From the IMG/VR virus record IMGVR_UViG_3300045932_000064, positions 1 to 24,036 of that record: a DNA stretch of 24,036 nucleotides. One strand, given 5' to 3'. Shown here piece by piece: positions 55-24,036 of the stretch (positions are counted from its first letter, which is position 1; each line of letters opens with the position of its first letter). Origin of the DNA: a virus. Position numbers and translations under genes: made by a program. The notes below the pieces were generated by a model, which had not been told where the DNA came from, did no database searches, and saw nothing but the letters and a program-made list of their open reading frames with translations.

Positions 55-80
55 GAGGCCGGAGCGGTGTACGTACGGTC

Positions 81-215: not shown

Positions 216-218
216 GGG

Positions 219-267: not shown

Positions 268-270
268 ACA

Positions 271-298: not shown

Positions 299-313
299 CT
301 TGACAAACGGGCG

Positions 314-4501: not shown

Positions 4502-4522
4502 CCCCGCACACTACGCGCGCCC

Positions 4523-6382: not shown

Positions 6383-6392
6383 AGGGGAGCGT

Positions 6393-6686: not shown

Positions 6687-6688
6687 CC

Positions 6689-8065: not shown

Positions 8066-8526
8066 TAAATCCTGGACCGTATCCACCAACGACCCCGGCA
8101 TCGGACCCCGAACCGGACCCGACGAGGGAAGACCCCGACCCGCTGACGGTCCCGCCGCCGGCACCGCGCGAAGAGCCGCCGCCGGAGGAACCGCCCGGGC
8201 CGGCGCCGCCAGGACCGGAAACGCCGCTCGTGTCCCTGGACGATGCGAAACGGCACTTAGGCGTCACCGATCCGGCACGTGACACCGAGATAACGTTTAC
8301 GCTCCGACACGCGAGCGCGCTCATTTTCGACTACATGAAAACGCGGATTGATCCGACCTGGGACGCGACCACGGCGCCGGCCGCCGTCCAGCGCGCGACG
8401 TTGATCATGCTCGGGCATCTGTGGGAACACCGCGGCGATGACATGGCGCCGGATGACCATGACGAGAAGGTGTGGGCGGTGATCAAGAACCTGCTCGCGA
8501 CCCGGCGCGATCCGGCGTTTGCGTGA
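8062..8526 (+). CDS. head-tail connector protein (HK97 gp6-like) with Pro-rich N-terminal extension
   Basis: A 154-residue protein. The C-terminal 100 residues match the gp6-like connector family, which forms a ring under the portal: VSLDDAKRHLGVTDPARDTE, a helix in TFTLRHASALIFDYMKTRI, and AVQRATLIMLGHLWEHRGD. The first 55 residues are extraordinary: almost only Pro, Glu, Asp and Gly, with repeats such as PPEEPPGPAPPGPE, and probably disordered. Family members normally begin close to the SLDDAK motif. ATG 8062 overlaps the portal stop, which supports translation of the extension; no ATG lies between the extension and the domain. The extension might reach the portal clip or the head interior. 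Confidence 0.8.
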   Translation: MINPGPYPPTTPASDPEPDPTREDPDPLTVPPPAPREEPPPEEPPGPAPPGPETPLVSLDDAKRHLGVTDPARDTEITFTLRHASALIFDYMKTRIDPTWDATTAPAAVQRATLIMLGHLWEHRGDDMAPDDHDEKVWAVIKNLLATRRDPAFA

Positions 8527-8529
8527 TCC

Positions 8530-8886
8530 ATGAAACGCGGTACGCGCGGCGGCCTGTGGCACGTGGTCACGTTTGAGAATCCCGGCACGCCGACGCCCGA
8601 CCCGGACGGCGGATATACCGAGGAGTGGACGCCCATCACGCCGCCGGACGGATGGCGTGTGAGTATTCGACCGGCGACCGTGCGCGACCTCGAACGCACC
8701 ACGGCCGGCACGGTGACCGCGCAAGCGACGCATATCGTCCAGGGTGACTATCATCCGGGCGTGACGACGAAAACGCGCATGAAGAAATTCGACGGGACAA
8801 CGTTTCAGATCGCCGGCGTCACGAGTGTGGATGACCGGGACCGCGAAATGGAACTCTTTTGTGTGGAGCAACTCGATGCCGAGTGA
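8530..8886 (+). CDS. head closure / head-tail adaptor protein
   Basis: A 118-residue, beta-rich protein of the phage head-tail joining family (SPP1 gp16 / HK97 gp7 group). It starts four bases after the connector stop. Features are the N-terminal strand region VVTFENPGTPTPDPDGGYTE, a central VSIRPATVRDLERT, HIVQGDYHPGVTTKTRMKK, and FDGTTFQIAGVTSVDDRDRE before a short tail. In this family the ring closes the DNA channel and provides the surface for tail docking. The gene overlaps the next by 11 bases. The length is normal. Confidence 0.82.
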   Translation: MKRGTRGGLWHVVTFENPGTPTPDPDGGYTEEWTPITPPDGWRVSIRPATVRDLERTTAGTVTAQATHIVQGDYHPGVTTKTRMKKFDGTTFQIAGVTSVDDRDREMELFCVEQLDAE

Positions 8887-9259
8887 ACTCCGCCTTGGCG
8901 GCGTCGATGTCTTGATCGCTGAACTGGAACGCACGTCGCCGGACCTCGCCGACGAAACGGCACCGGAAATTGAGAACGCCACGGACCGCACGGAGACGCG
9001 CACGCGGGACGCCTATCCGGTCGTGTCGGGTGACTTGCGCGACGGGGTCCGCAAGGTCCCGGTGTCGACCGGACGGCGGTATCGCCTGCATACGCGCGTC
9101 GTGTCGGGCGCGGCGCACGCGCACTTCTACGAATTCGGCACGGTGCGCACGCGGGCACATCCGACGTTCCTGCCGATCGCGCGCCAGGAGCAAGTGGCGA
9201 TGGTGAAACGGGTCGTCGCGATCGTGCGCGCCCACGGCCTGCAGGTGACCGGAGACTAA
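8876..9259 (+). CDS. HK97 gp10-like tail-joining protein
   Basis: A 127-residue protein. ATG 8876 lies inside the end of the head closure gene, an overlap of 11 bases. The pattern is that of HK97-gp10-type minor tail proteins: an N-terminal helix (VDVLIAELERTSPDLADETA), a segment TRDAYPVVSGDLRDGVR, then HAHFYEFGTVRTRAHPTFLP, which is the family's most constant part. The C-terminal helix includes AMVKRVVAIVRAH. These proteins act at the head-tail interface or in tail completion. Its order, after head closure and before the tail terminator, is the usual one. Confidence 0.82.
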   Translation: MPSELRLGGVDVLIAELERTSPDLADETAPEIENATDRTETRTRDAYPVVSGDLRDGVRKVPVSTGRRYRLHTRVVSGAAHAHFYEFGTVRTRAHPTFLPIARQEQVAMVKRVVAIVRAHGLQVTGD

Positions 9260-9263
9260 GCCG

Positions 9264-9692
9264 ATGGCCGACGCAAATGGCCTCGACAGCGCGGTGCTCA
9301 TACTCCTGCAACAGGACACGCAGCTGCTCGCGCTCTGTCCCGATGGCACGTGGTGGGACCGCGCGCCGGTCGGCCTCTCGCAATTCGTGATCGTGTCGCT
9401 CTTTGACCATGAGGATATTCCGGGCCTCGATGATACCGACCTATGGGAACGGACCGAGTATCTCGTGAAGGCCGTCGTGCGCAGCAAGTCCGGCACTACG
9501 GCCGGCGATGCCGCGGCGCGCATTCACACGCTGCTCCATCGCACCGTGATCGACCTCGCGCCGGCCAGCTACGCATATATGGCCTCCCGGCGCCTTCGAC
9601 GCGTGGATTACACCGAACCGGACCCGAGCGATAAAGCGATGAACTGGCACCACAACGGCGGGACCTACGAACTCGCCGCCACGGCACTCTGA
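9264..9692 (+). CDS. tail terminator / completion protein (DUF3168, gp17-like)
   Basis: A 142-residue protein of the family that caps the tail tube and joins it to the head. The N-terminal helix SAVLILLQQDTQLLALCPDG is followed by FVIVSLFDHEDIPGL, a strand region TEYLVKAVVRSKSGTTAGDA, and AARIHTLLHRTVIDL, then LRRVDYTEPDPSDK near the end, as in DUF3168-type members. It lies four bases after the previous stop. The size and place, just before the major tail protein, are as expected. Confidence 0.78.
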   Translation: MADANGLDSAVLILLQQDTQLLALCPDGTWWDRAPVGLSQFVIVSLFDHEDIPGLDDTDLWERTEYLVKAVVRSKSGTTAGDAAARIHTLLHRTVIDLAPASYAYMASRRLRRVDYTEPDPSDKAMNWHHNGGTYELAATAL

Positions 9693-9712
9693 ACCACGAA
9701 AGGATCACGCGT

Positions 9713-10123
9713 ATGGCTCGACGCCACGGCAGCAAAGGCCAAGTGAAGATGGACCCCACGGGCGGCGCGACGACAGCCGTGGTCGCGTCGCTCAACAACT
9801 GGTCGCTCGACCTCACGCGCGATCGCGCGGACGTGACGTGTTTCGGCGACACGAACAAAGTCAGCGTCCAAGGCCTGCCGACCTACGAGGGCGAGCTCGC
9901 CGGCATCTGGGACCCGACCACGACGCCGGATCTCTTCCATGCCGCAATGGGAGACGTCGCCGTCATGCTCGAACTGGTTCCGTCCGCGCTCGACCCGACG
10001 CACTTGTTCAAAGGCCTCGCGTATCTCGACGCCGGCATCGAAGTCGCCGCCGATGGGGCCATCACGATCAGCGGGTCGTTTGCCGCGGCCGGGCCGTGGG
10101 CGCTCGAACCGCCGCCGGCCTAA
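9713..10123 (+). CDS. major tail (tube) protein
   Basis: A 136-residue protein that would polymerise into the tail tube. ATG 9713 has a clear ribosome binding site, AAAGGA at 9699-9704, consistent with a protein needed in many copies. The sequence is beta-rich. The telling stretch is NNWSLDLTRDRADVTCFGDT followed by NKVSVQGLPTYEGELAGIWD, seen in many small siphovirus tail tube proteins. The end ITISGSFAAAGPWALEPPPA is also typical. The position between tail terminator and tail chaperone genes agrees. Confidence 0.82.
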   Translation: MARRHGSKGQVKMDPTGGATTAVVASLNNWSLDLTRDRADVTCFGDTNKVSVQGLPTYEGELAGIWDPTTTPDLFHAAMGDVAVMLELVPSALDPTHLFKGLAYLDAGIEVAADGAITISGSFAAAGPWALEPPPA

Positions 10124-10132
10124 GCGGGCGCC

Positions 10133-10417
10133 ATGCATGTGAGCGGCCGAGTCGCGCGCGTGAAGTGGACCTATTTCACCGCGGCGGAGGTCAGCGCTTA
10201 TACCGTCACGTATGAAGCCGCCGGCGCGTGGCAGATGGGCGCCAAGGTCGAGATCGCGGACGCCTACCTGCTCACGCAACGGCCGCTGATGTTTGTGGCG
10301 CCGTTTCGCGGCGGCGCCTGGCAGTGGCCAGTCAAAACCGTGGAACTGGCTGCCGACGGGCGCCGCCTGACCGCGCGCCTGGGCGACTGGTTTGTTACCC
10401 GAAAGGACACCGCATGA
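10133..10417 (+). CDS. small tail-region protein of unknown function
   Basis: A 94-residue protein with predicted beta strands: RVARVKWTYFTAAEVSAYTV, WQMGAKVEIADAYLL, RPLMFVAPFRGGAWQWPVK, then RRLTARLGDW. No known motif is recognised. Proteins of this type follow the tail tube gene in some phages of GC-rich bacteria, but their job is not known. The gene starts ten bases after the tail tube stop, and its TGA overlaps the ATG of the chaperone gene (ATGA at 10414-10417). A minor tail or assembly role is inferred from position. Confidence 0.6.
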   Translation: MHVSGRVARVKWTYFTAAEVSAYTVTYEAAGAWQMGAKVEIADAYLLTQRPLMFVAPFRGGAWQWPVKTVELAADGRRLTARLGDWFVTRKDTA

Positions 10418-10872
10418 GCATCCGGATGCGCCGCCCGGAGACCACACGCCTGGATCTCTCGGGGGACGATTACCTGGTCGTCAAAAAGTATTTAACCGCC
10501 GGCGAGGCGCAGCAACTGTTCGGCGCGAGCGTGAAGCCGGTGTACGTGCCCCAGGGCACGGTGACGCCCGAGATCCTGGCCGCGGCCATGTCGCAAATGC
10601 AGGTCGACATCACGGCCGCCACACGCGAGACGATCCTGGCGTATTTGCTGGATTGGAGTTTCCAAGACCCCGACGGACGGCCGCTGGTGATTGCCGACCA
10701 GCCGCGGAGCGTCGTGAGTGCGATCCTCAGCAACATCGATGACGACGCGTATATGGAGGTCCTCCGGGCGATCGGCGCCCACAAAGCCGCGGTGGATGCC
10801 GAGGTCGCGGCACAAAAAAAAATCCCGCGTGGACCGCGGCCCTTGACACCGATCTCGACCTCTGTCGGGTAA
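10414..10872 (+). CDS. tail assembly chaperone, short (gpG-like) form
   Basis: A 152-residue protein preceded by AAAGGA at 10402-10407, six bases before ATG 10414. It lies directly upstream of the tape measure gene, where almost all siphoviruses encode a pair of tail chaperones. The protein is helical, with SGDDYLVVKKYLTAGEAQQL, RETILAYLLDWSFQDPDGRP and SVVSAILSNIDDDAYMEVLR. Near its end, codons 134-136 (CAA AAA AAA) lie in a run of nine A. A -1 shift there opens the frame that holds the downstream half. Without the shift, translation ends after a short basic, Pro-containing tail at TAA 10870-10872. Confidence 0.82.
   Translation: MSIRMRRPETTRLDLSGDDYLVVKKYLTAGEAQQLFGASVKPVYVPQGTVTPEILAAAMSQMQVDITAATRETILAYLLDWSFQDPDGRPLVIADQPRSVVSAILSNIDDDAYMEVLRAIGAHKAAVDAEVAAQKKIPRGPRPLTPISTSVG
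10814..10822 (+). promoter_or_regulatory. -1 programmed ribosomal frameshift site (nine A)
   Basis: Nine consecutive A residues occur in a GC-rich genome, read as CAA AAA AAA ATC in the zero frame. This contains A AAA AAA, a classical bacterial slippery heptamer. Slipping back one base continues as AAT CCC GCG from 10821 and stays open to TGA at 10977-10979. The GC-rich stretch ATCCCGCGTGGACCGCGGCC right after it (10822-10841) can form a CCGCG/CGCGG hairpin, a plausible stimulator. Confidence 0.72.
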
Positions 10873-10979
10873 TGGGCTGGACGTATGCCGACGTCCAGGA
10901 GCTGCCCCTTCATGTCCATGAGCATCTGGTGGCGAAGCTCAACGCGGAGGCCGAGCGCGCGTCTCATCGCCGGTGGTGA
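10821..10979 (+). CDS. tail assembly chaperone, frameshifted C-terminal part (gpT-like)
   Basis: This -1 frame segment adds 52 residues to the chaperone after the A run, giving a 188-residue fusion. It reads NPAWTAALDTDLDLCRVMGW and later VQELPLHVHEHLVAKLN. The motif of an aromatic Gly-Trp followed by an LP and helix is common in the second tail chaperone frame of phages. It ends three bases before the tape measure ATG. An independent start at ATG 10872, overlapping the upstream TAA, would give only 35 residues, so expression by frameshift is more likely. The two forms are expected to escort tape measure and tube subunits. Confidence 0.7.
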   Translation, partial: NPAWTAALDTDLDLCRVMGWTYADVQELPLHVHEHLVAKLNAEAERASHRRW

Positions 10980-10982
10980 CCG

Positions 10983-12443
10983 ATGGCCTTAAGTGCAAAT
11001 TTCATTGCGGATTTTTCGTCGTTCATCGAGCAGACGCGGGCGAGTGTCGCCGCGATGCAAGGGTTTAAGGAAACGGCCGAAGAGATGGGACCGGCGGCCG
11101 ATCGCGGCCTCGCCGACCGCGAAAAACAGTTTGAGCAATTGGGCCGCCAAATTCACCGCGTCGGCGCGGATGCCCTCGCCGCGGCCGGGACGTTCATCCA
11201 GGCCTTCGCGGAGGAACAAGAAGCGGTCGCGCACCTGACCGCCGCGCTCGAAGCGAACGGGCAAGCGGCGCCGGCGGTCATCCAGGCGTACGCCGACATG
11301 GCGTCGCAATTTCAAAACACGACGAAGTACGCCGACGACGCGATCACGTCCGCGCAGGCCGTGTTGACCACCATCGGCGACGTCGGACCCGAGCAAATGC
11401 AAGCGGCGCTGACCGCGGTCACGAATCTCGCCTCGGGCATGAAGATCGATTTGAGTACCGCGGCCGAGCTCGTGGCGAAGGCCTTCGCGACCGGTGGCGA
11501 AAACCTCGGGCGACTGAAAACGGTCCTGGGTGACACCGTGCCAGAAGGCGCCGAGATGGCCGACGTCCTGGCGGCGATCAATGAAAAATTCGGCGGCCAG
11601 GCGCAAAAGGATTTGGAAACCTACAACGGGCAAATGGCGCAGCTGAACAATCAACTGGGCGATTTCCAAGAACAAGTCGGCAAGGTCCTCGTCGACAACC
11701 TCACCACGTTGCTCCACGCATTCCAATCGTTGCCGGAAGGCGTGCAGACGTTCACGCTCGCGGTCGTCGGCATCGGCACGGCCCTGGCGCCCGTCCTGGT
11801 GAGTCTCGCGTCGCTCGTGTCGATTCTGTCCACGCCGGTCATTGCCACCGGCTTGTCGGCCGCGCTCAGTGCCATCTTGCCGTTCCTCGGTCCGGCCGGC
11901 CTGATTGCCGCCGGCGTGATCGCGGTTGTCGCGGTCTGGAAAAACTGGGACGCGATCGTCGGATTCGTGAAGGCGGTGCATGACGCCGTCGCCACGTGGC
12001 TCGTCAACAAGTTCAACGCCCTGGTCGACTCGATTAAGGAAAAAATCGGCGCCGTCGTGAACGCGTTCAAGTGGATGTATTCGGCCGTCGCCGGCAATTC
12101 GTACGTCCCGGACATGGTGAACGTCATTCGGTCGGAATTCGGCAAACTCGATTCCGTGATGGTGCAACCGGCGAAACACGCCGCCGCGGCCGTGACGGAT
12201 GCGTTCGCGGGTCTGCTCGGCGGGCAGTTCACGTCGATTAGTGATTTTGCGCGCTACCGGGGCGGCATTGCGGATCTGATGACCAAAGGCGGCGCCGGCG
12301 GCGGCGGGCCGATCAACGTCACGATCAACATGTCCGGCATGATGGGCACCGATGACCCGCAAACCCGATCGATGCTGCGCCAGCTCGTCGGGGAGGCGCT
12401 GATGGAAGGCATGAGAGAGGCGCGCCTGCTCGGGCGCACCTGA
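10983..12443 (+). CDS. tail tape measure protein
   Basis: A 486-residue protein rich in Ala and Gln, mostly helical. Residues 35-240 are likely coiled coil, including LADREKQFEQLGRQIHRVGA and TTKYADDAITSAQAVLTTIG. Residues about 253-320 are strongly hydrophobic, with FTLAVVGIGTALAPVLVSLA and LPFLGPAGLIAAGVIAVVAV. A Gly-rich hinge (GGAGGGG) precedes the C-terminus. These are standard tape measure features, and it is the longest tail gene before the hub. At roughly 1.5 angstrom per residue it implies a tail of about 70 nm, short for a siphovirus. The hydrophobic part probably helps the DNA cross the inner membrane. No lytic transglycosylase motif is seen. Confidence 0.88.
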   Translation: MALSANFIADFSSFIEQTRASVAAMQGFKETAEEMGPAADRGLADREKQFEQLGRQIHRVGADALAAAGTFIQAFAEEQEAVAHLTAALEANGQAAPAVIQAYADMASQFQNTTKYADDAITSAQAVLTTIGDVGPEQMQAALTAVTNLASGMKIDLSTAAELVAKAFATGGENLGRLKTVLGDTVPEGAEMADVLAAINEKFGGQAQKDLETYNGQMAQLNNQLGDFQEQVGKVLVDNLTTLLHAFQSLPEGVQTFTLAVVGIGTALAPVLVSLASLVSILSTPVIATGLSAALSAILPFLGPAGLIAAGVIAVVAVWKNWDAIVGFVKAVHDAVATWLVNKFNALVDSIKEKIGAVVNAFKWMYSAVAGNSYVPDMVNVIRSEFGKLDSVMVQPAKHAAAAVTDAFAGLLGGQFTSISDFARYRGGIADLMTKGGAGGGGPINVTINMSGMMGTDDPQTRSMLRQLVGEALMEGMREARLLGRT

Positions 12444-12454
12444 CGAAATGATCC

Positions 12455-14383
12455 ATGCCGCTCGACCTCTCGCAAGTCGTGATCGTGCTGGGCGGCGTCG
12501 TCGCCACACCACTCGGCCGCCTGGGCTCGCTGCACATTTCCGATGTGCTGAACGATGCGCCGAACACGGCGACGCTCACGACGAAGTTCCTCGGCGAAGA
12601 TACCGTCATTTTTGCGGCGCCGTTCAACCCGGACGCCTTCGATAACGCCGCGTTTTGCACGACACCCACCGCCGGCCCGCCGCTGCCGGCGGTCCATCCC
12701 GGCATGCCGATCGCGATCTACCTCGGCCAGGTGAATCCGGACTATTTGATTTTCGGCGGCGAGCTGATCGTGCTGGAGCAATTTTACGAGCTGATTCCCG
12801 AGCACGTTGCGTTTCATGTGTCCTGCCTCGATTACACACGCCGCGGCAATCGCAAAAAAGTCCTGCGGACCTACGGACAACAATCCGCGACGGCGATCGT
12901 CCTCGACCTCGTCTCGCGCTACACCGATTTGACGAGCGCCCACGTGGCCGCCGGCCTGCCCACGGTCGAGGGCGGCATTACGTTCACGTTCGAAGACCTC
13001 TCGCGTGCCCTCTCGCGCGTGGCCGAAACCATCGGCGCCTCGTGGTATTGGGACTACACCGGCGACTTGCATTTTTTTCTCACCGAACCGGAGGACGCGC
13101 CCGACGACCTCACGCCGACGGCGCGATTCGCCGACCTGAAAATCACCAGCGATATCACGCAAGTCCGCACGCGCGTCCTCGTCGAAGGCGCCGGCTCGAC
13201 GGTGGCGGCGACGCTGGCCGCCGGCGAAACGATCATCCCGGTGCGCGATGCGACGGCCTTCGCGGCCGCCGGCGGCCAGGCGATCAGCGGCACGTTGCGC
13301 CTCACGTATACCGGCAAACAGGCCGGGACGGGCAAGGCGAATACCGTCGGCACCCCGACGGCGCCGCCGGCGCGGCCTGGAACCCCGTCGTCCGCGTATT
13401 CATCGACTCCGGGAGGATTGGGCGCAGGCCCCTATTACTGGGTCGTCCAGTTTGAAATGAGCGATGGCGCGCGGAGCGATATCACGCAGATTCCCCAAGG
13501 GCCGATCTGGCCGGGGACCTACACGGCGATCGATCTGTCGATGATCTCGATCGGGCCAGCCGGCACCGCGCGGCGCCGGATTTTCCGCACGAAGTCCGGC
13601 GGAAGTGAATATCGAGAAGTCACGGCGATTCAAAACAACACGGCGACGACCTTCACCGATACCGAAGCGGATTCGACGCTTGGCGGCGCGCCACAAGCGC
13701 CGCAAGGCGGCGCCGCGCCGCCGACGGCGATCGGCGCGACGACTCTCCAAGTCTCGGATCTGACGCCGTTTTCGGCCTCGGGCGGCTGGGTCCTGGCGGG
13801 CGAGCAACCGATTCGCTATACGGGAACGTCGAGCACGGGCGGGTTCTTCCTGACCGGGATTCCGGCCTCCGGGCCGGGTTCGATTACGGCCACCATTCCC
13901 GTCGGCGATCCGATCGTGGCCGCGCCGGCGCTGGTCGGCGTCGCGCCGCTGACCGGCACCGACCCGCTCGCCCTGGCCGTGGATGCCGACATCCAGCTGC
14001 TCGCGGTCGTGGATGACGCGGCCGCGCAGTCGGCCCTGGCCGCGCTCGAAGGCGGCGACGGCATCGTGGAGCACTACATTCAAGATCGGCGCTTGTCGGA
14101 AGCGGGCGCGCGCGCGCGAGGCCTCGCCGAGCTCGCGCTGTTCAAACAGGTCGAAGTTCGGATTTCCTATCTGACCTACGACGAGAAGACGCGCAGCGGC
14201 AAAACCGTCCATGTCGACCTGCCGGCGCCGACCGACCTCACCGGCGATTTTCTGATCCAGCAAGTCACGATTGACCAGGTGTCGTTCGCGAAAAACTTCA
14301 TGCCGCGCCGGCGCGTCGAGGCGAGTTCGACGCGGTTCACGTTCGACCAGGTGTTGCAGCGCCTGCTCTTGGAAGGATTGTGA
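12455..14383 (+). CDS. tail hub / baseplate protein with inserted beta domains
   Basis: A 642-residue protein after the tape measure gene. Residues 1-230 resemble a gpD/gp44-like hub: LGSLHISDVLNDAPNTATLT, GMPIAIYLGQVNPDYLIFGG, HVSCLDYTRRGNRKKVLRTY, and SRALSRVAETIGASWYWDYT. Residues about 245-480 look inserted: Gly/Thr/Pro-rich beta repeats with APPARPGTPSSAYS, a Fn3-like YYWVVQFEMSDGARSDI and IFRTKSGGSEYREV. Residues 480-642 return to a hub-like fold with GDGIVEHYIQDRRLSEAGAR and DLTGDFLIQQVTIDQVSF. The inserted domains may bind surface sugars. No lysozyme or peptidase motif was seen. The start is ATG 12455, 11 bases after the previous stop. Confidence 0.7.
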   Translation: MPLDLSQVVIVLGGVVATPLGRLGSLHISDVLNDAPNTATLTTKFLGEDTVIFAAPFNPDAFDNAAFCTTPTAGPPLPAVHPGMPIAIYLGQVNPDYLIFGGELIVLEQFYELIPEHVAFHVSCLDYTRRGNRKKVLRTYGQQSATAIVLDLVSRYTDLTSAHVAAGLPTVEGGITFTFEDLSRALSRVAETIGASWYWDYTGDLHFFLTEPEDAPDDLTPTARFADLKITSDITQVRTRVLVEGAGSTVAATLAAGETIIPVRDATAFAAAGGQAISGTLRLTYTGKQAGTGKANTVGTPTAPPARPGTPSSAYSSTPGGLGAGPYYWVVQFEMSDGARSDITQIPQGPIWPGTYTAIDLSMISIGPAGTARRRIFRTKSGGSEYREVTAIQNNTATTFTDTEADSTLGGAPQAPQGGAAPPTAIGATTLQVSDLTPFSASGGWVLAGEQPIRYTGTSSTGGFFLTGIPASGPGSITATIPVGDPIVAAPALVGVAPLTGTDPLALAVDADIQLLAVVDDAAAQSALAALEGGDGIVEHYIQDRRLSEAGARARGLAELALFKQVEVRISYLTYDEKTRSGKTVHVDLPAPTDLTGDFLIQQVTIDQVSFAKNFMPRRRVEASSTRFTFDQVLQRLLLEGL

Positions 14384-14385
14384 TT

Positions 14386-15315
14386 ATGAGCAACGTCCTC
14401 GCTCACCGCTTTGTCAGTGCGCGCGCCGACGGCGCCGATGCCACGCAAGTGCAACCCTCGCATTGGAACGACGGCCACAAGTTCACGGGCGGCGCCGCGG
14501 ACGAGCTGCTCGTGCGCGATCCGACCGACACGAATTTCGGCGCGAAGTGGGTCGCGAGTCCGTCCGTCGTCAATCTGACGGCGTCCGGGCTAATCACCGG
14601 CCGCGACGTCACCCGGATCTCGTCGACGGCGACGGGCACGCAGAACGACTGGAATCCGGGCATTGTGAAAGGCACGACGTATATCGAATGGGCGGGCGCC
14701 TCAGCCCTCACGGTCACGGGGATCGCGGGGGGATTCGAGGGCTCCGTGCTGATTTTCAAAGCGGCGGGGGCCGCGGCGCCGGCGACATTCGCGCATGCCT
14801 CGGCCTCGTCGGCCGTGGGCGCTCGATTCAGCAATATCGCCTCGAGCGGGCCGACGCCGGTGGCGAATTTGGGCTATGCGATCTGGGTGCATAACGGCAC
14901 GTATTGGGTGCTGGTGTCGCACGACCAGGGAAGCTGGATCACGCCGGCCTTTTCTGCGGCGAACTATACGGCGTTCTCGGCCGGCACCTGGACCGTCGAG
15001 GCGAGCGATATCGGCGTCCTGCGGTATGTGCTGCACGGTAAGACGCTGAGTGTGCAACTGGCGATCGACAACACCACGGTCGTGCTCAGTGGCGGACAAC
15101 CGACGTTTCTCGTGATCGCGACGGCGGGCGTCTCGCCCTTTATGCCGACGGTCTTTACGAATCTGTGTCTCGTCGATAACAACAATCTGCAGGAGACGGG
15201 TCTCTTTCAATTCAACGGTGCGAATTATCTCATTTCACGCTTGGGCGGCGGCGTCTTTACGGCGGCGACCAATACCAGCGGCGTCTTTGCCCATTCCACG
15301 TTTGAAGTTAACTAA
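14386..15315 (+). CDS. candidate receptor-binding / tail fibre protein
   Basis: A 309-residue beta-rich protein. ATG 14386 has GGAAGGA at 14371-14377, eight bases upstream; a GTG at 14380 is a less likely alternative. The N-terminus holds ATQVQPSHWNDGHKFTGGAA and a later GAKWVAS, a pattern common at the attachment end of phage fibre proteins. Residues 80-200 look like a beta domain (TYIEWAGASALTVTGIAGGF, LGYAIWVHNGTYWVL). Residues 200-309 form another (HGKTLSVQLAIDNTTVVLSG). Its place as the last tail gene, before membrane proteins, fits receptor binding. The exact fold and ligand are unknown. Confidence 0.65.
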   Translation: MSNVLAHRFVSARADGADATQVQPSHWNDGHKFTGGAADELLVRDPTDTNFGAKWVASPSVVNLTASGLITGRDVTRISSTATGTQNDWNPGIVKGTTYIEWAGASALTVTGIAGGFEGSVLIFKAAGAAAPATFAHASASSAVGARFSNIASSGPTPVANLGYAIWVHNGTYWVLVSHDQGSWITPAFSAANYTAFSAGTWTVEASDIGVLRYVLHGKTLSVQLAIDNTTVVLSGGQPTFLVIATAGVSPFMPTVFTNLCLVDNNNLQETGLFQFNGANYLISRLGGGVFTAATNTSGVFAHSTFEVN

Positions 15316-15331
15316 CCTTGGAGAAGGACCG

Positions 15332-15496
15332 ATGCTGTTGCAATTGATCGTGTTGATCGTCGTGCTCGGCGTCGCGCTCTATCTGGTCGAAACCTACGTA
15401 CCGATGGCGCCACCGCTGAAGCTGTTGCTTCGCGTCGTCATCGTCCTGGCGATCATCATCTACCTGTTCCGCCTGGCCGGCTTGCTGCCACTATGA
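15332..15496 (+). CDS. small two-helix membrane protein (Thivi_2564-like)
   Basis: A 54-residue protein with a very strong ribosome binding site (GGAGAAGGA at 15320-15328, three bases before ATG 15332). There are two hydrophobic segments, residues 2-20 and 32-52, joined by a short loop TYVPMAPPLK. This layout matches a family of tiny membrane proteins found in phages and proteobacteria. A class II holin has the same topology, so a lysis role is possible. The next gene starts within its stop codon (ATGA at 15493-15496). Confidence 0.68.
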   Translation: MLLQLIVLIVVLGVALYLVETYVPMAPPLKLLLRVVIVLAIIIYLFRLAGLLPL

Positions 15497-15705
15497 CCAG
15501 GCGCGCCGCGATCGTCGTGTTCCTCGCGGCCGTGTCGAGCAGCTGCGCGACGGTGGACCGCCTGGCGCGCGCCCGCGTGCCGCGGCGGTGTGCCGACGGC
15601 TTGCCGGCGAAGGTGTTTCAAGATCCGCGGTGTCCGCCCGACGGCATCTGCGGATTTACCTGCGCGCCCGAGCGATGGGCCGACGTGATCACGCCGCCGA
15701 AGTGA
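15493..15705 (+). CDS. small cysteine-rich lipoprotein-like protein
   Basis: A 70-residue protein. The N-terminus MTRRAAIVVFLAAVSSSC has a basic start, a hydrophobic core and a Cys where a lipid anchor could attach (SSSC is a weak lipobox). Four more Cys follow in the mature part (CADG, RCPP, ICG, TCAP), suggesting disulfides in the periplasm or outside. It is coupled to the membrane protein gene upstream. An Rz1-like spanin lipoprotein or a superinfection-exclusion lipoprotein would fit the place, but no partner Rz was recognised. It is the last gene before the attachment site. Confidence 0.6.
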   Translation: MTRRAAIVVFLAAVSSSCATVDRLARARVPRRCADGLPAKVFQDPRCPPDGICGFTCAPERWADVITPPK

Positions 15706-15766
15706 GCGCGCGCGGGACATCACACCACGAAATTCCCTAACGGACCTTTCGCCTCGCGCGGGGCTC

Positions 15767-15783
15767 ATCGGGTATCCGATTTT
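15767..15783 (+). terminator. weak hairpin followed by T residues after the structural operon
   Basis: ATCGG (15767-15771) and CCGAT (15776-15780) form a 5-bp stem with a GTAT loop, followed by a short T tract ending at 15783. It lies about 60 bases past the last late gene. The stem is short, so termination may be weak. No stronger terminator is visible between the late genes and attP. Confidence 0.3.
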
Positions 15784-15794
15784 AGCGGTTCTTG

Positions 15795-15829
15795 TGCGTG
15801 GAAGCGTGGAAATGCTGCGTGGAAGTTTT
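15795..15829 (+). repeat. attP left arm: three arm-type direct repeats
   Basis: TGCGTGGAAG occurs at 15795-15804 and 15816-15825, with the variant AGCGTGGAAA between them at 15803-15812. The 26 bases 15804-15829 recur at 16022-16047 on the other side of the core with one mismatch. Repeated decamers on both sides of a tRNA core are the signature of integrase arm-type sites. The pair spacing of 13 bp (15803 to 15816) is also the spacing of the right-arm pair. Confidence 0.8.
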
Positions 15830-15843
15830 TGTAACTCCCGCAT

Positions 15844-15856
15844 TATCAATTACTTA
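15844..15856 (+). promoter_or_regulatory. perfect IHF consensus site, left of the attP core
   Basis: TATCAATTACTTA matches the IHF consensus WATCAANNNNTTR at every fixed position. It lies between the left arm repeats and the tRNA core, where IHF bends attP in lambda-like systems. A short AT-rich patch surrounds it. IHF binding is inferred from the motif only. Confidence 0.6.
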
Positions 15857-15868
15857 GCCTACCGAAAA

Positions 15869-15918
15869 TCGGTTTCCTAAACCGGGGGTCGCAGGTTCGA
15901 GACCTGCCGGGCGCACCA
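15869..15918 (+). other. attP: attP core: 3' half of a tRNA-Arg(CCU) gene including CCA
   Basis: Bases 15869-15885 form an anticodon arm (stem TCGGT/ACCGG, loop TTCCTAA, anticodon CCT). A five-base variable loop, a perfect T arm (GCAGG, loop TTCGAGA, CCTGC), the 3' acceptor strand CGGGCGC, discriminator A and CCA follow. The 5' half (acceptor strand GCGCCCG and D arm) is absent upstream. A 3' tRNA fragment beside an integrase gene and arm repeats is the classical phage half of a tRNA attachment site. Integration would restore a complete host tRNA-Arg(CCU). The left limit of identity with attB is uncertain; it may extend a few bases beyond the anticodon stem or start within it. Confidence 0.88.
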
Positions 15919-15922
15919 ATAA

Positions 15923-15935
15923 AATCAACAACTTA
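15923..15935 (+). promoter_or_regulatory. perfect IHF consensus site, right of the attP core
   Basis: AATCAACAACTTA matches WATCAANNNNTTR at every fixed position. It begins five bases after the tRNA CCA and mirrors the site at 15844-15856. Two exact matches within 100 bases, one on each side of the core, are unlikely in a GC-rich sequence. They suggest a bent nucleoprotein complex of the lambda type. Confidence 0.6.
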
Positions 15936-15955
15936 CGGGAAATGCCCGCGATCGA

Positions 15956-15966
15956 CTTCCACGCAG
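15956..15966 (-). repeat. attP right arm: inverted arm-type repeat
   Basis: CTTCCACGCAG is the reverse complement of CTGCGTGGAAG, the same element found directly repeated in both arms. It is the only copy in inverted orientation. It lies between the right IHF-like site and the two distal direct copies. Confidence 0.75.
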
Positions 15967-15983
15967 TCGGGATTCAACGAAGT

Positions 15984-16005
15984 TCAAAAATACGCCCATT
16001 TTTGA
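15984..16005. promoter_or_regulatory. AT-rich 8-bp inverted repeat in the right arm of attP
   Basis: TCAAAAAT (15984-15991) and ATTTTTGA (15998-16005) are exact reverse complements around ACGCCC. The AT-rich arms stand out from the GC-rich surroundings. No T-run follows the stem on the + strand. It could be an operator for the integrase operon, or a site for an excisionase within the attP complex. Confidence 0.45.
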
Positions 16006-16020
16006 TCGAGCGCTCCGCCC

Positions 16021-16047
16021 TGCGTGGAAGTGCTGCGTGGAAGTTTT
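16021..16047 (+). repeat. attP right arm: two distal arm-type direct repeats
   Basis: TGCGTGGAAG occurs at 16021-16030 and 16034-16043, 13 bp apart, as in the left arm. Bases 16022-16047 repeat 15804-15829 with a single mismatch. These sites end about 90 bases before the start codon of the arm-domain protein. Confidence 0.8.
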
Positions 16048-16069
16048 GCCGACCTTAGCTTTCGCCCTT

Positions 16070-16099
16070 TTGACCAGGGCTTAACGAATAACCTAAGCT
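16070..16099 (+). promoter_or_regulatory. possible promoter of the integrase operon
   Basis: TTGACC (16070-16075) is close to a -35 element. TAAGCT (16094-16099) lies 18 bases further and is a poor -10 element. The place, between the arm sites and AGGAGGA of the first integrase-operon gene, is suitable, and binding at the arm sites could repress it. The support is weak because the -10 match is low. Confidence 0.28.
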
Positions 16100-16125
16100 G
16101 TGAGCGCGAAACCTAATTTCAGGAG

Positions 16126-16173
16126 GACCGATTCGATGAAAGACCAGCGGACCGATTCGAAGAAAGACCAGCG
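16126..16173 (+). repeat. 24-bp tandem duplication across the start codon of the arm-domain gene
   Basis: Bases 16126-16149 and 16150-16173 are identical except for one base. The ATG start in the first copy is AAG in the second. The copy junction is GCGGACCG. The duplication encodes the repeated D-S-x-K-D-Q-R pattern at the N-terminus. It looks like a recent slippage event and may have moved the start codon relative to the ribosome binding site AGGAGGA at 16121-16127. Confidence 0.85.
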
Positions 16174-17215
16174 GAAATTGACAGACGAATTTGTGGCGCG
16201 GTGTTCCACGGGCAACTACTGGGACACCGAGGAGCGCGGCCTCCATCTGCGCGTCCGCGCCAACGGCGGCAAGCGATGGTGGTTTAACTACAAGCACGAC
16301 CCGTCGGACCCCGAGGCGATGGGCGCCATCTCCGGGTCGGCCGGCATTGGAGACTATCCCGCCGTCTCGTTGCAGGAAGCGCGGCGCCAAGCGCGCATGA
16401 TTCGCAGCCGGACGCCTGGCTATCGCGACCACACCTGGAAGCGTCCGAAGAAAACACCGACCACCACACCGACGAACCCTAAATCCTCGCGACGCCGCGT
16501 CGTCGCGTCCCGCGCCAACGGCCGCCTCGGTGGCCGCCCACGCACCAGCGCGCAGCGCGTCTTCACCTATCGCTGGGAGGACGGGGATTTGTCCCTCATC
16601 GTCGCGTCCGACCTGCAAGATGCCATCAATGCCCTCGACGAAATCGGCCCGCTGGATTTCCGTCAGATCAAACCCTATACGGGGCGCGAATTTGCGCTCG
16701 TGTTTTGTCGAGACGCCGCGGGTCGCCTCGTGCTGAATCGCACCGGCGAACGGGCCGCAGCGTTCGAGGAGCTGTGTGACGAGGCCGAGCTCGGCATCCC
16801 AGACGCAATCGCGGAAGACGACGAACGGTACCAGCAGCTCATGCAACTCCACGCGGAGGCCAACGCCCTGGCCGTGCAACACGTACGCGATCGCTTGTCG
16901 CCCGAGGACCTGGCCGCGCTGGACGACTCGCATCCGGGCACCGGCACGCGCGCGCGGGCGAAGCCACGTGAGGAACTCGAACGTGCCCTCAAGATGACCT
17001 TGCCGCAAATGAAGCGCTACCTGAAGCGCGAAGCGCGCGCCACGGCCATGTCGATCTCGATTTGGACCAAAGGCGGCGACGGGTCCGATGTGGACATGAC
17101 GGAGGAGTACAAGCGGATCGACGCGATGACCGAGGCGGACATGGAACGCGGCCATGCCAGCGCCCGCGCCCAACTTGAGGCGATGGCGAAGCGAGAGGCG
17201 GAATTGCAATCATGA
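16136..17215 (+). CDS. orphan integrase arm-binding domain (DUF4102-like) fused to an unknown C-terminal region
   Basis: A 359-residue protein. ATG 16136 follows AGGAGGA (16121-16127) with ideal spacing. Residues 14-90 match the arm-type DNA-binding domain at the N-terminus of P4-type integrases: LTDEFVARCSTGNYWDTEER, GLHLRVRANGGKRWWFNYKH, then IGDYPAVSLQEARRQARMIR. No core-binding or catalytic recombinase domain follows. Instead there is a basic Thr/Arg linker with a GGRPR AT-hook-like motif (132-136), a domain around 142-205 (FTYRWEDGDLSLIVASDLQD, GREFALVFCRDAAGRLVL) and a charged helical C-terminus (225-359). It is coupled to the next gene by an ATGA overlap. It lies right beside the arm sites, so it may bind them as an integrase partner or directionality factor. 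A rearranged integrase remnant is the alternative. Confidence 0.65.
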   Translation: MKDQRTDSKKDQRKLTDEFVARCSTGNYWDTEERGLHLRVRANGGKRWWFNYKHDPSDPEAMGAISGSAGIGDYPAVSLQEARRQARMIRSRTPGYRDHTWKRPKKTPTTTPTNPKSSRRRVVASRANGRLGGRPRTSAQRVFTYRWEDGDLSLIVASDLQDAINALDEIGPLDFRQIKPYTGREFALVFCRDAAGRLVLNRTGERAAAFEELCDEAELGIPDAIAEDDERYQQLMQLHAEANALAVQHVRDRLSPEDLAALDDSHPGTGTRARAKPREELERALKMTLPQMKRYLKREARATAMSISIWTKGGDGSDVDMTEEYKRIDAMTEADMERGHASARAQLEAMAKREAELQS

Positions 17216-17469
17216 AAACATCAGCCGACGAGACTATCGAACGTGGCGAAGCGACCTTCAGCGTGACACTCATCCGCGAGAATGGCGTCTGGAAACCCGT
17301 ACGTGACCCGAACTATGTCCCATTGATTGACCGCCTGAGCCCGGAGGGGCAAGACATTCTGATCGAGGCGTTCGCGGACATCTTTCTGGCCAGAGCGCGG
17401 GCCACACTCAAGGCTCGCAAACAACACAAACGGCGCCCGCGGCCGACAGAAAAGAGCAGCAAATCATGA
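17212..17469 (+). CDS. small protein of unknown function in the integrase operon
   Basis: An 85-residue protein coupled on both sides by ATGA overlaps (17212-17215 and 17466-17469). The N-terminal half may form strands (GEATFSVTLIRENGVWKPVR). A helix follows (LSPEGQDILIEAFADIFLAR), and the last 20 residues are very basic (ARKQHKRRPRPTEKSS), which suggests nucleic acid contact. No family is recognised. Lying between the arm-domain protein and the recombinase, it may belong to the integration machinery, for example as an excisionase-like accessory. That is inference from position and charge only. Confidence 0.55.
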   Translation: MKTSADETIERGEATFSVTLIRENGVWKPVRDPNYVPLIDRLSPEGQDILIEAFADIFLARARATLKARKQHKRRPRPTEKSSKS

Positions 17470-18743
17470 ACACCCGTACACGCAAAACGCGGCTGGCGCG
17501 CGGCATCTATCGCGACGCCCACGGCATCTCCGTCGTCGCGCGGATTGGATCGGGCGCGAGCGAACGGACCGCGCCGCCGGTCCGCTTTCCGTTGCTCGCG
17601 CCCGATGGCCGGGAATACTCGGTCAAGAATCGCAATCTCGCCGAGCTCGAGCAGACGTTCATCCGCCTCCGCGAGCAGCTGCTCCGGGCGCCCGAGGCGC
17701 AGCGCGGCGCCGGCACATTGGCCGCCGAGATGGACCGCTACTTCGACCTGCTACCGCCGGACAAGGACGGGCGGCACAAGAAACGCGATTTCGCGTACCT
17801 GCGCAAGCATTGGCAGGCGTCGGACCTCGGCGCGATGGACCCGGACCGGATTCAACCGTCGGATATCCTGAAACCATGGACCGACTGGCAAGTCGCGGGC
17901 GTCGCGAACACGACGATGAATCATCGCATCCGCATCCTGGACGAGGTGTTGCGGTGGTTGCATGTCAATGACAAGACCTACGTGCCGCCGACGGCGAAGG
18001 TCCACATCAAACGGTTGCCGCCGCCCGACCCCGAGCCGCGCAATGTGCCGATTCCGACGATTCGGCGGATTTTTGTGACCATGCCGGACCAGGGGCGCGC
18101 CGAGAAGGGCCAGGCGCGGCCGACCGTCAGTCGGACTAAAACGATCCTGCAGGTCTGCGCCTGGACCGCGCTCCCGTACGCGCAATTGGCACGTCTCAAA
18201 AAGACTGACGTTGACCTGCGACGCGCCCGCATGTTGATGCCGAACCGGCCGAAGGGCAAAGGCGTGCGGGCGAAGTATGTGCCGCTCTTGCCGCAGGCGG
18301 TCGAGGCGTTTAAACGGTTCGATGCCGTCGGCCTGTGGGGTCTGCCACATTTTTCTGCGTCGAGCGCGTGGAAATCCTGGACATGCGCCGTCGAGAACAC
18401 GCGCGCGGCGCTCGCGCGAGAGGCCGCACAGACGGGCGACACGCAGCCGCTCGACGACTTCAACCGGGACGTGCCGCCGAAGTGCCATCCGTACGACCTG
18501 CGCCATAGTTTCCTGACCGACGCCTACGAGCAGACGGGCGACATTCGCGCGGTCGCCGGTCTCGGGCATCATGCGGACATCAAAACGACCGAACGCTATA
18601 CCACGGGCGGCGTGGCGAAACGCGAAACGATTGCGGTCGACAAGATGCGCGACGCCTGGAAGGATCTGCCGCCGGTCCCGCCACCGGCACCGCGGGTGCC
18701 GCGGCCACGCGGAAAGTTGCATCTCGTCCCGCCGCGTTCGTAA
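17466..18743 (+). CDS. int: tyrosine recombinase (phage integrase), atypical first catalytic box
   Basis: A 425-residue integrase that would recombine attP with the host tRNA-Arg gene. Residues 1-75 form a beta-rich N-terminal part that may bind arm sites. Residues 83-170 are a SAM-like core-binding domain. Residues 195-400 are catalytic. Box II reads HPYDLRHSFL with R346; a Tyr replaces the usual His three residues before it. The LGHHADIKTTERY segment gives H368 and the nucleophile Y378. A beta-hairpin Lys is present in RPKGKGVRAKYVPL. In box I the expected T-G-L-R reads TALP (residues 234-237), so the first catalytic Arg appears to be Pro. The C-terminus is a Pro-rich tail. ATG 17466 overlaps the upstream stop. 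Confidence 0.88.
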   Translation: MNTRTRKTRLARGIYRDAHGISVVARIGSGASERTAPPVRFPLLAPDGREYSVKNRNLAELEQTFIRLREQLLRAPEAQRGAGTLAAEMDRYFDLLPPDKDGRHKKRDFAYLRKHWQASDLGAMDPDRIQPSDILKPWTDWQVAGVANTTMNHRIRILDEVLRWLHVNDKTYVPPTAKVHIKRLPPPDPEPRNVPIPTIRRIFVTMPDQGRAEKGQARPTVSRTKTILQVCAWTALPYAQLARLKKTDVDLRRARMLMPNRPKGKGVRAKYVPLLPQAVEAFKRFDAVGLWGLPHFSASSAWKSWTCAVENTRAALAREAAQTGDTQPLDDFNRDVPPKCHPYDLRHSFLTDAYEQTGDIRAVAGLGHHADIKTTERYTTGGVAKRETIAVDKMRDAWKDLPPVPPPAPRVPRPRGKLHLVPPRS

Positions 18744-19921: not shown

Positions 19922-20188
19922 ATGCTACTGCTCGTGTTCGGCTGGCCGTGGAATGCGGTCATCGTGATCGGTCTGCTGGCCCTGATTGACGTCGCGCTCT
20001 GGCTCGTCGTGAACCGTCTGGCCCGGGGAGGGTTCCGTGATAAAACGCAAGCCGCCGAAATCGCCGCGCCTCACACCGTCGCCCGATGGCACGTTCAGCA
20101 CCACGATCACCGACGCCCACGATGGCGTCTGGTTACTCGGGCCGAACCGCGAAACGATCCGTTGGGTCGACACCGGGTCCGGCAGTGA
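19922..20188 (+). CDS. possible small membrane protein overlapping the next gene
   Basis: An 88-residue ORF from ATG 19922. Residues 1-34 contain a strongly hydrophobic segment (NAVIVIGLLALIDVALWLVV) that looks like a real transmembrane helix. The rest, from about residue 39 on, overlaps the start of the next gene in another frame for 152 bases and has composition like a shadow frame (rich in His and Arg). No good ribosome binding site precedes ATG 19922. It may be a holin-like protein whose tail is not conserved, or a spurious frame with a hydrophobic start. It would stand next to the glycoside-hydrolase-like gene, as holins stand next to lysins. Confidence 0.4.
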   Translation: MLLLVFGWPWNAVIVIGLLALIDVALWLVVNRLARGGFRDKTQAAEIAAPHTVARWHVQHHDHRRPRWRLVTRAEPRNDPLGRHRVRQ

Positions 20189-21653
20189 ATATTGCTGGTC
20201 CGAGGGTGTGCTCTATGTGCACGGCGTCGACGACCAGTGGTATCGATTGCGGGAGGACCACCACTGGGAACATTTCGGCGCGACCCCACCGATTCCGAAA
20301 CCACATCCGGACATGTCGCCCGATGGAACGTGCGCGTTCGAGGTCGTGGATGTCGACGGGCACAGGTGGACCATCGGCGCGAACCAGGCCACGCTTTGCG
20401 ACGGCGCATGGATCGGCGGCGGGTCCGGGTCGTACTACCTGTATTCGGGTCGCGTCGTGTTCGTCTTTGGCATTGACCTGAATTGGCACTATTGGAGCGG
20501 CGAGGCCTGGCGCTATTACGGACCCGAGCCGCCGGTGCCGGTGACGCCGCCCACACCGGGCGCCACGTGTCCGCCGCGCCTCTATCGCAACGCGGACAGC
20601 TGGCCGCAAGCCCTCTGCCATCTCAACACCGCAACGCCCGTCGTCATCAAAGGCGTGAGCGCATTTCCGCTCGCCGAGATGATTGCGCACGGGCGCGAGC
20701 CGGAAGCGATCGGTTTTCTGGACTGGTGTCAGATGCAACGGCTCAACATGGTCCGCGTCTTTTTGTCCTGCTCGAACATGTTTCCGCTGACCCCGGACGA
20801 AGGACGCGCAGCCCTGCCACGGCTCCTCGAGCTGGCCGGCAATCGCGGGCTCTACGTCGAAGCCGTCGCGATCGCGGATAGCTTCGCGTATGCAGCGTGT
20901 GACTGGGCGGCGCACGTGCGCGCGGTCGGCGAGATCTGCGCCGCGTATCCGAATAGCCTGGTCGAGGGCGCGAACGAGCCGATGCAGCAATGGCAACCGT
21001 TCAACCCGGACGAGCTCTACCGCTTCTGCAGTCAGATTCCGTCAGGTGTGCCCTGGACGCTCGGCGCCGCCGATGGTCCGAACGATGAATCACGCGCCTA
21101 TTGCTCGAAGTCGTCGAGTTGGCAAAACGTGCATTCGGATCGGACTAAGGCGCCGTGGGGCAACGTGCGGCATACGCGCGAGCAGCAAGTCCTCTCGGAC
21201 GAGATCAACCAATACGTCGGCAACGACGAACCGGGCGACGACTTCACGCCCGCGCAACAGTTCGCGATCGGTGGCTTGTGTCGCGTCTGCATGCTGTGGG
21301 ACACGTTCCACGCCGACCAGGTGAAGTACGGACAGATTCCGACCGGCGCCGAGCTCGACGCCTTCCGCGCCCGGCAGGCGGCGTGGGACTTTGTGCCGGA
21401 CGGCGCCTGGGGCACGTTTGCGAATTACGGCTGGGTGCCGCCGAACCCGGAGTCACCGGTCCAGGCGTACACGGCGCACTCCGATGATTCGCGCGCCTAT
21501 GCGGTGCTCGTGGGCGACCGCGAAGCCTACGTCCTGCTGAGCGATGGATGTTCGCCGGTCTGGAAATCGGGCTGGACGTGTGACCGGAAAGACGAACGGA
21601 CGAGCCGCGTCGATGGCGTCATCGAAACCGGGCTCTACCACGTGTACCGGTGA
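20037..21653 (+). CDS. glycoside-hydrolase-like protein with two N-terminal beta repeats
   Basis: A 538-residue protein from GTG 20037, with GGGGAGGG just upstream. Residues 13-85 and 92-166 are two copies of one repeat: SPDGT, a Trp-Gly core (VWLLGPN / RWTIGAN), GSGSEY / GSGSYY, YVHGVDDQWYR / FVFGIDLNWHY, and a closing W with GxxPPxP. Similar repeats occur in phage and cell-surface proteins. Residues 180-470 look like a TIM-barrel hydrolase of the GH5-type clan: LDWCQMQRLNMVRVFLS (228-244), YVEAVAIADSF, and VEGANEPMQQW with N-E-P at 313-315 (E314 as possible acid/base). A second acidic cluster, SDEINQYVGNDEP, lies at 387-399. The tail (470-538) is beta-rich. No signal peptide is seen. It may be a depolymerase or an unusual lysin; the substrate is unknown. 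Confidence 0.6.
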   Translation: MIKRKPPKSPRLTPSPDGTFSTTITDAHDGVWLLGPNRETIRWVDTGSGSEYCWSEGVLYVHGVDDQWYRLREDHHWEHFGATPPIPKPHPDMSPDGTCAFEVVDVDGHRWTIGANQATLCDGAWIGGGSGSYYLYSGRVVFVFGIDLNWHYWSGEAWRYYGPEPPVPVTPPTPGATCPPRLYRNADSWPQALCHLNTATPVVIKGVSAFPLAEMIAHGREPEAIGFLDWCQMQRLNMVRVFLSCSNMFPLTPDEGRAALPRLLELAGNRGLYVEAVAIADSFAYAACDWAAHVRAVGEICAAYPNSLVEGANEPMQQWQPFNPDELYRFCSQIPSGVPWTLGAADGPNDESRAYCSKSSSWQNVHSDRTKAPWGNVRHTREQQVLSDEINQYVGNDEPGDDFTPAQQFAIGGLCRVCMLWDTFHADQVKYGQIPTGAELDAFRARQAAWDFVPDGAWGTFANYGWVPPNPESPVQAYTAHSDDSRAYAVLVGDREAYVLLSDGCSPVWKSGWTCDRKDERTSRVDGVIETGLYHVYR

Positions 21654-23777: not shown

Positions 23778-23961
23778 TTTAGTGAGGCTTATAACCAGGG
23801 GGGGGAGGGGCGCCAGGCGCGCGCGCGACTCGCGCGAAGCCGTGCCGGGCGACGCGCGCATTTTCGGGGAAAATCGGGGGGGGTCGCCCGGGGTCGGCCC
23901 GAACCGTCCCCGGAACCGTTCCCGGAACCGTCCCGGAACCGTTCCCGCGGGGAGGGGCCAT
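23778..23961. other. G-rich and repeat-rich gap right of the HNH gene, candidate packaging region
   Basis: No gene is seen here. The gap holds an 8-G run followed by A and four G (23798-23810), a second 8-G run (23876-23883), CG-alternating stretches near 23819-23835, and the 12-bp array at 23901-23947. Strong strand bias of G runs could allow G-quadruplexes on the + strand. The position between the HNH nuclease and the terminase genes in the circular map is where cos sites lie in related phages. Confidence 0.55.
23901..23947 (+). repeat. tandem 11-12-bp repeat array, unit GAACCGTYCCCG
   Basis: Four adjacent copies: GAACCGTCCCCG (23901-23912), GAACCGTTCCCG (23913-23924), GAACCGTCCCG (23925-23935) and GAACCGTTCCCG (23936-23947). 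The T and C variants alternate. With the preceding G, the T copies contain GGAAC-C-GTTCC, an inverted repeat around one base. GAACCG is also the core, in the other orientation, of the 10-bp array at 219-267. Confidence 0.85.
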
Positions 23962-24036
23962 ATGAGGCGGTCGTTATTGTGGGCGACGTTCGGCCTGGTG
24001 GTCGTGGCGGCATTCATGGTCGGAGCGGCGTCGGAG
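23962..24036 (+). CDS. 5' part of a small membrane protein, open at the window end
   Basis: ATG 23962 follows GGGGAGGGG and opens a frame still open at the last base, giving 25 residues: MRRSLLWATFGLVVVAAFMV and then GAASE. A basic start and a hydrophobic core make a membrane anchor or signal peptide. Continuing at base 1 gives an intact short ORF ending at 54. The ribosome binding site and hydrophobicity suggest it is real. The function is unknown; a lysis accessory is possible. Confidence 0.5.
   Translation, partial: MRRSLLWATFGLVVVAAFMVGAASE

Follow-up and report, generated by a model that had tools for sequence, protein, structure and literature searches.

What does a phage gain from a large glycosidase-like protein when its genome encodes no endolysin that can be recognised? 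The question is raised by protein P0001 of a 24,036-base virus record (the whole stretch of DNA analysed here, referred to as 'the window'). The first-pass annotation, made from the letters alone, considered three roles for this protein, namely a new type of lysin replacing the endolysin, a surface depolymerase, or a cargo protein that alters the surface sugars of the lysogen. We favour, with moderate confidence, the view that P0001 is a host-type surface-polysaccharide hydrolase of a small, soil-type temperate siphophage, which acts after release and is not a cell-wall lysin. Origin and substrate of phage polysaccharide depolymerases are usually obscure; for P0001, the origin and the likely substrate become testable because its nearest relatives are often found in bacterial glycan-assembly loci.

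P0001 is placed in a module that follows excisionase-like and replication-initiator-like genes (Table 1). The tail-like genes end at position 15315 and P0001 begins ~4.7 kb later, beyond the integrase, in agreement with the earlier remark that the gene is remote from the tail genes and lies in the early region. It is hence not encoded with the tail genes, that is, not where a tail spike or virion depolymerase would be looked for. The hydrophobic ORF which had been noticed next to the gene turned out to be an 88-residue frame that extends into P0001 itself, and it has no Pfam match. At the other end, the overlap of the P0001 stop with the start of the next ORF makes a shared transcription unit for these two genes likely, as judged from the gene layout. 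The codon-position GC content of P0001 (0.63/0.51/0.80) matches that of the phage structural genes, and a simple promoter and terminator scan yielded nothing exceeding shuffles. A 371-residue ORF (window positions 16100–17215) with the integrase arm-binding domain PF13356, in which the catalytic domain was not found, adjoins the full integrase at 17466–18743.

Table 1. Positions of P0001, its predicted parts and the adjacent genes in the window.
Feature	Position	Strand	Basis or remark
Replication-initiator-like gene upstream of P0001	19397..19906	+	PHROG 678, E 3.4e-7
Small hydrophobic ORF, 88 aa	19922..20188	+	Other frame; covers P0001 start by ~150 bp
GGGGAGGG, possible ribosome-binding site for GTG at 20037	~20025..20032	+	Read from sequence
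P0001 ORF, 538 aa, GTG start	20037..21653	+	Tandem β-repeats, Pro-rich linker, clan GH-A-like (β/α)8 barrel
β-repeat 1, residues 15–84	20079..20288	+	Repeat self-alignment
β-repeat 2, residues 94–166	20316..20534	+	Repeat self-alignment
(β/α)8 barrel, about residues 205–460	20649..21416	+	AlphaFold2 model, block pLDDT 54–97 to ~455; VIA Z 24
E314 codon, N-E-P, proposed acid/base, end of β4	20976..20978	+	Model and alignments
E398 codon, D-E-P, proposed nucleophile, end of β7	21228..21230	+	Model and alignments
ORF after P0001, 85 aa	21650..21907	+	Start overlaps P0001 stop; relative present in G026

The proposal that P0001 contains a TIM-barrel-like domain with an N-E-P motif is borne out by a second AlphaFold2 model of the barrel (m4654e04b8ed9; 12-row alignment; pTM 0.75, mean pLDDT 68.4), in which strands and helices alternate in the manner of a (β/α)8 barrel. 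Most of the core exhibits pLDDT values >75 and the β5–β6 region values of ~54–71, while the C-terminal stretch of residues 459–538 (pLDDT <50) is not resolved by the model. The first model, computed from three rows (pLDDT 45.9), and the fold search performed with it were too poor in quality and were therefore not used as proof. Foldseek with the barrel model returned 369 PDB matches at E ≤ 0.001, the best one being GH5 BVU_2644 (E 6e-8), and VIA-align Z-scores reached 24.1 with a GH140 apiosidase and 24.0 with both BT_1012 and a GH5 mannosidase, and were about 24 for GH5 mannosidases and mannanases overall, so that comparison with the GH families yields a barrel resembling GH5 and GH140. Among viral structure models, the best match to the barrel is an uncharacterised phage protein (E 2.6e-12), and the 'cellulase or glycoside hydrolase' of Erwinia phage phiEaP8 matches with E 2.5e-5. 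In domain-model numbering, E314 follows the strand comprising residues 132–137, and a second glutamate, E398, follows strand 218–222; both are invariant throughout the 12-row family alignment, to which P0001 contributes one row, and in all 12 bacterial rows described below. E398 thus supplies the partner of E314 that had been anticipated at first pass. E389, suggested as second glutamate by a poor alignment, was rejected because it is not conserved and is located within a modelled helix (residues 198–215 of the domain model). Judged from the model, P0001 fits the clan GH-A glycosidases, with (i) a (β/α)8 barrel and (ii) glutamates at the C-terminal ends of β4 and β7, and E314 and E398 are the predicted catalytic pair.

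A common fold gives no substrate, and the GH5/GH140 structures 4lyq, 5msy and 8t9w, which share the barrel fold of P0001 with Z-scores of about 24, exhibit 9–13% sequence identity to it. None of the 12 aligned family members, P0001 included, passes Pfam, PHROGs or NCBIfam; one of the 12 reaches E 0.32 for the Pfam GH5 model PF00150, short of its cut-off, and P0001 does not match that model at all. A PROSITE-like pattern for the GH5 signature is present in three of the 12 alignment rows and absent from P0001. When run against PDB sequences, the family profile matches endoglucanase 6gjf (E 4e-7) with N-E-P aligned on N-E-P, the match covering only profile positions 6–131 out of 319. Since P0001 misses both the Pfam cut-off and this signature, strict GH5 membership is not claimed. 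What emerges is a glycosidase family absent from the three libraries searched and present on 13 viral contigs (the window counted) and in 15 of 162 genomes of one bacterial order; a limited literature search retrieved no published record of it.

Searches with the single sequence contributed little to the delineation of this family. No relative was obtained by scanning viral and genome contigs for patterns of P0001, by tblastn against 50,697 phage records, by phmmer against the PDB, by a search of 294 genomes, or, using the barrel part, from plasmids; a search of 398 genomes yielded two weak matches, one of them with internal stops. The records of 50 phage relatives likewise returned nothing, although one of these (G037) has a member, and the method is therefore weak for distant members. 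This 342-residue ORF of G037 (27% identity to P0001) was the first barrel relative found. The motif T[FY]H-x4-K[FY]G-x2-PT, searched as a degenerate DNA pattern, then gave five stretches, of which two are new members; the match in L171 was discarded as a chance one. An alignment scan brought the number of viral contigs with related barrels to 12 (L175–L186). Barrel queries from G037, L178 and L184 found no family member among the 50,697 phage records, an additional scan with A5 returned only members already known, and scans with A2 and with the excisionase-like gene added nothing on P0001. The family alignment comprises P0001 and 11 of the 12 viral contigs, L182/L102 being omitted as its member scores the same as that of L101. 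A profile built from the 11 viral members without P0001 was run on 187 loci including the window (15,423 frames in total) and recovers P0001 with E 1.2e-9.

One profile thus detects both P0001 and the phage-type barrels (L175–L186), which nevertheless form a clade separate from that of P0001 and are either encoded behind a propeller/Pro-rich partner gene or fused to fascin-like domains. Nine of the 12 viral contigs (L175, L176, L177, L101, L102, L082/G037, L184, L185 and L186) have a partner gene just upstream of the barrel, and these partners share an N-terminal domain; L178 encodes an 841-residue fusion, and L181 a fascin-type fusion. In contrast to P0001 with its place in the early module, some phage-type barrels directly follow tail genes: on the viral contigs with visible tail homologues (L177, L178 and L101), the barrel gene is downstream of these. 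Three side observations may be added. First, to judge by eye, a second barrel-like domain closes the partner gene L175:6085–7668, which has no Pfam match. Second, a conserved pair of small genes, encoding a lipoprotein-like protein of ~134–159 residues and a protein of ~96–103 residues, is located 3' of the barrel in L177, L181, L184, L185, L101, L102 and L082, and may possibly represent lysis or accessory genes. Third, G004 (15068–16945), G003 (11186–13060) and G020 (L160:31–1914) encode proteins of 625–628 residues after a tail gene, which combine a fascin-type β-trefoil with a barrel-looking part; the family profile misses them at E 1, and they are not considered members.

It is then of importance for the origin of P0001 that its closest relatives are bacterial. 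With the 12-row profile, the phylum of Herbaspirillum gave no match (398 genomes) and the phylum of G052 a single one (297 genomes); within the order to which this match belongs, 15 of 162 genomes then gave matches. This order may, as a guess, belong to the Acidobacteriota. 16S matches were obtained in two of four genomes. Of the 17 bacterial matches, the 12 with loci entered the tree and the five without were omitted. P0001 is 37.5% identical to the bacterial sequence L191_bact (E 4e-41) as compared with 26% for its best phage-type match (E 4.5e-7), and it scores 201 bits with a profile of the bacterial rows versus 37.8 bits with the phage-type profile. Consistently, the 24-row tree places P0001 among the bacterial rows and the phage rows, together with L189, on the opposite side, with a split support of 100/98. 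The branch of P0001 is long (1.35 in this tree), and its exact position within the bacterial side is therefore loose. L189 (G1062:C107:48926–49879; locus L204) is a gene on a bacterial contig that groups with the phage-type barrels, and its neighbours are not phage-like in appearance.

The barrels of the bacterial order (L190–L199) have the barrel family and motif residues of P0001, with which they group at 100/98, and differ from it at the N-terminus, where most carry a signal-like hydrophobic segment. A hydrophobic stretch, defined as a mean hydropathy of at least 2.3 over 12 residues, precedes the barrel in nine of the 12 bacterial members. In P0001, no such stretch occurs among the first 40 residues (VIKRKPPKSPRLT..., VIKRKPPKSP...), and it thus lacks the N-terminal signal of its bacterial relatives. 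It carries the two-copy β-repeat described at first pass, which stands up to scrutiny: the local score of the repeat pair is 140, while shuffles have a mean of 28 and a maximum of 55, with 0 of 1000 scoring as high. A Pro-rich linker joins the repeats to the barrel. The repeats have no match in the 12 bacterial relatives, tblastn of the N-terminal part against 50,697 phage records gave nothing significant (best E 0.01), and no known virion-attachment domain was found in P0001. Hence, the tree and the profile scores show P0001 to share, at the level of sequence, a lineage with a mostly secreted bacterial enzyme, and we infer that its gene was transferred from host to phage.

The surroundings of the bacterial genes suggest what this enzyme may act on. 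Glycan-assembly markers are present at seven of the 12 bacterial barrel loci; as the marker queries were taken from L205–L207 themselves, the independent count is four of nine. A gene for an ArnC-like polyprenyl-phosphate glycosyltransferase (so labelled from PDB matches with E 1e-48 to 1e-63) lies within ~2 kb upstream of the barrel at five loci (L205, L207, L208, L209 and L210), all of which also have DedA-like genes nearby and four of which have GT-C genes, and L206 and L211 exhibit radical-SAM, flippase-like and GT-C genes. UGM-like and GT4 labels likewise come from searches, whereas radical-SAM, flippase, GT-C, DedA and AroA are names assigned by eye, without any search. The other five loci (L188, L212, L213, L214 and L204) have no close glycan marker, a single remote GT2 match being all that L204 shows, and two of these five are on contigs shorter than 10 kb (L213, 4.6 kb; L214, 9.6 kb).

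Because the nearest relatives are secreted and several are encoded beside surface-sugar genes, P0001 probably trims or opens the sugar coat of its host. Its barrel would cleave a glycosidic bond by the usual two-glutamate retaining mechanism, with E314 serving as the acid/base and E398 as the nucleophile; the substrate would be a surface glycan of the host, and the tandem β-repeats would hold the protein on this glycan or on the virion. Showing no signal peptide, P0001 most likely acts extracellularly once set free with the virions or the lysate, where it would thin the host's own exopolysaccharide and thus aid adsorption or spread. The gene itself would be host-derived, from a lineage found in surface-glycan assembly loci. 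It is tempting, if tentative, to speculate further that the phage took a glycosidase with which the host builds or trims its glycan, and that this enzyme lost its export signal, gained a binding module, and was turned against the same glycan. If so, the specificity of the depolymerase would be inherited from a glycan locus of the host, and the host operon containing the nearest relative could reveal what a phage depolymerase cuts.

The nearest working model for P0001 is, by analogy, gp095 of Erwinia phage S6, which consists of two N-terminal anchor domains and a C-terminal GH5 domain and breaks down a soluble derivative of cellulose; cellulose itself serves phage S6 as its first receptor (PMC9544554). 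The two proteins are alike in having two N-terminal domains, a C-terminal clan GH-A barrel and two catalytic glutamates, and in acting (P0001 by prediction) on a bacterial exopolysaccharide type of substrate. However, gp095 is a recognised GH5 member from a lytic phage (PMC9544554), while P0001 matches no family model, has other N-terminal repeats and resides in the early module of a temperate phage. Polysaccharide hydrolases are also encoded on soil viral contigs, as exemplified by a GH5 endomannanase from Stordalen Mire (PMC6786970) and a GH75 chitosanase (PMC9485262), both of which were expressed and found active. In these two reports, the enzymes are presented as carbon-degradation genes, whereas the relatives of P0001 point to a surface glycan of the host.

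The early-module position of P0001 also fits expression in the lysogen, and the protein could then be cargo that remodels the surface glycan of the host, for example to mask a receptor from other phages. We regard this main rival as rather unlikely, even though several observations are in line with it: (i) the gene has the replication-initiator-like gene on one side and a weakly Hjc-like gene on the other and is overlapped by the next ORF, (ii) the glycan loci of the bacterial relatives would suit such a function, (iii) two phage-type barrels (L175 and L176) open with a lipoprotein-like signal, and (iv) the early regions of G023 and G024 encode secreted PEP-CTERM proteins, so that this region can hold surface cargo. 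Against it, P0001 is devoid of the N-terminal hydrophobic stretch that most of its bacterial relatives possess, and the hydrophobic ORF upstream is in a different frame. The PEP-CTERM proteins (L095:10559–11329 in G023 and L096:1310–2062 in G024; 251–257 residues) begin with a signal and end with a PEP-CTERM sorting motif, a possible sign that the host has an exosortase. Quite improbable is the alternative that P0001 is a catalytically dead sugar-binding protein: beyond the motif residues its barrel is indeed divergent (20–28% identity to the phage-type rows), but all 24 sequences retain R240, N313, E314, H366, E398 and H425.

As for the lysin, the window looks, from its ends and an overlapping contig, like a complete circular genome of ~24 kb: its first and last nine bases are identical, and IMG/VR contig L002 runs across the joint, being 100% identical to window positions 23849–24036 followed by 1–10873. 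The absence of a recognised lysin is therefore no effect of truncation. In agreement with the first-pass annotation, which recognised no lysozyme, amidase, transglycosylase or peptidase, no lytic family was found among 36 distinct window ORFs scanned (24 against Pfam, 20 against PHROGs, eight against both), and P0001 has no known peptidoglycan-hydrolase domain. The phage relatives (80 of 216 found through the terminase were kept) share the gene order TerS–TerL–head–tail–integrase–excisionase/replication–HNH and measure about 21–25 kb where nearly whole; a terminase scan of genome contigs gave no close prophage (best 49%). For eight of them (G003, G004, G005, G023, G024, G030, G031 and G033), none of which has P0001, 69 non-structural ORFs were scanned, chosen from a list of 171 ORFs that omits head and tail genes; the 13 Pfam families matched, all of which were listed, include no lytic one. 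A scan of 139 ORFs shows only the best 25 of 39 Pfam and the best 25 of 125 PHROG families, and hence cannot exclude a lysin. Since relatives without P0001 are also without a recognised lysin among the ORFs scanned, the absence of a recognised lysin does not track P0001. Conversely, in L177 a gene two positions upstream of the related barrel codes for a protein with an SLT transglycosylase domain (E 8.9e-10).

P0001 is thus probably not the missing cell-wall lysin, and the reading in which it substitutes for the usual enzyme and cuts peptidoglycan, which the complete circle devoid of another lytic family among the ORFs scanned and the adjoining small hydrophobic ORF would favour, is the least probable of all, given the relatives without a recognised lysin among their scanned ORFs, the SLT protein of L177, the frequent location of bacterial relatives in glycan loci, and a fold related to GH5/GH140-type polysaccharide hydrolases and not to lysozymes. 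Of the three roles considered at first pass, depolymerase and surface-sugar cargo both fit the glycan loci, while the new lysin is not supported. What also emerges is a clade of near-complete 21–25 kb phages with no recognised lysin among the ORFs scanned. Two minor features are located near the joint of the circle, namely a short intergenic tandem repeat of TCTGTCCGGT units (window positions about 216–270) and two very short hydrophobic ORFs of 39 and 44 residues (23962–24036 continuing into the window start, and 81–215), which are possibly membrane proteins.
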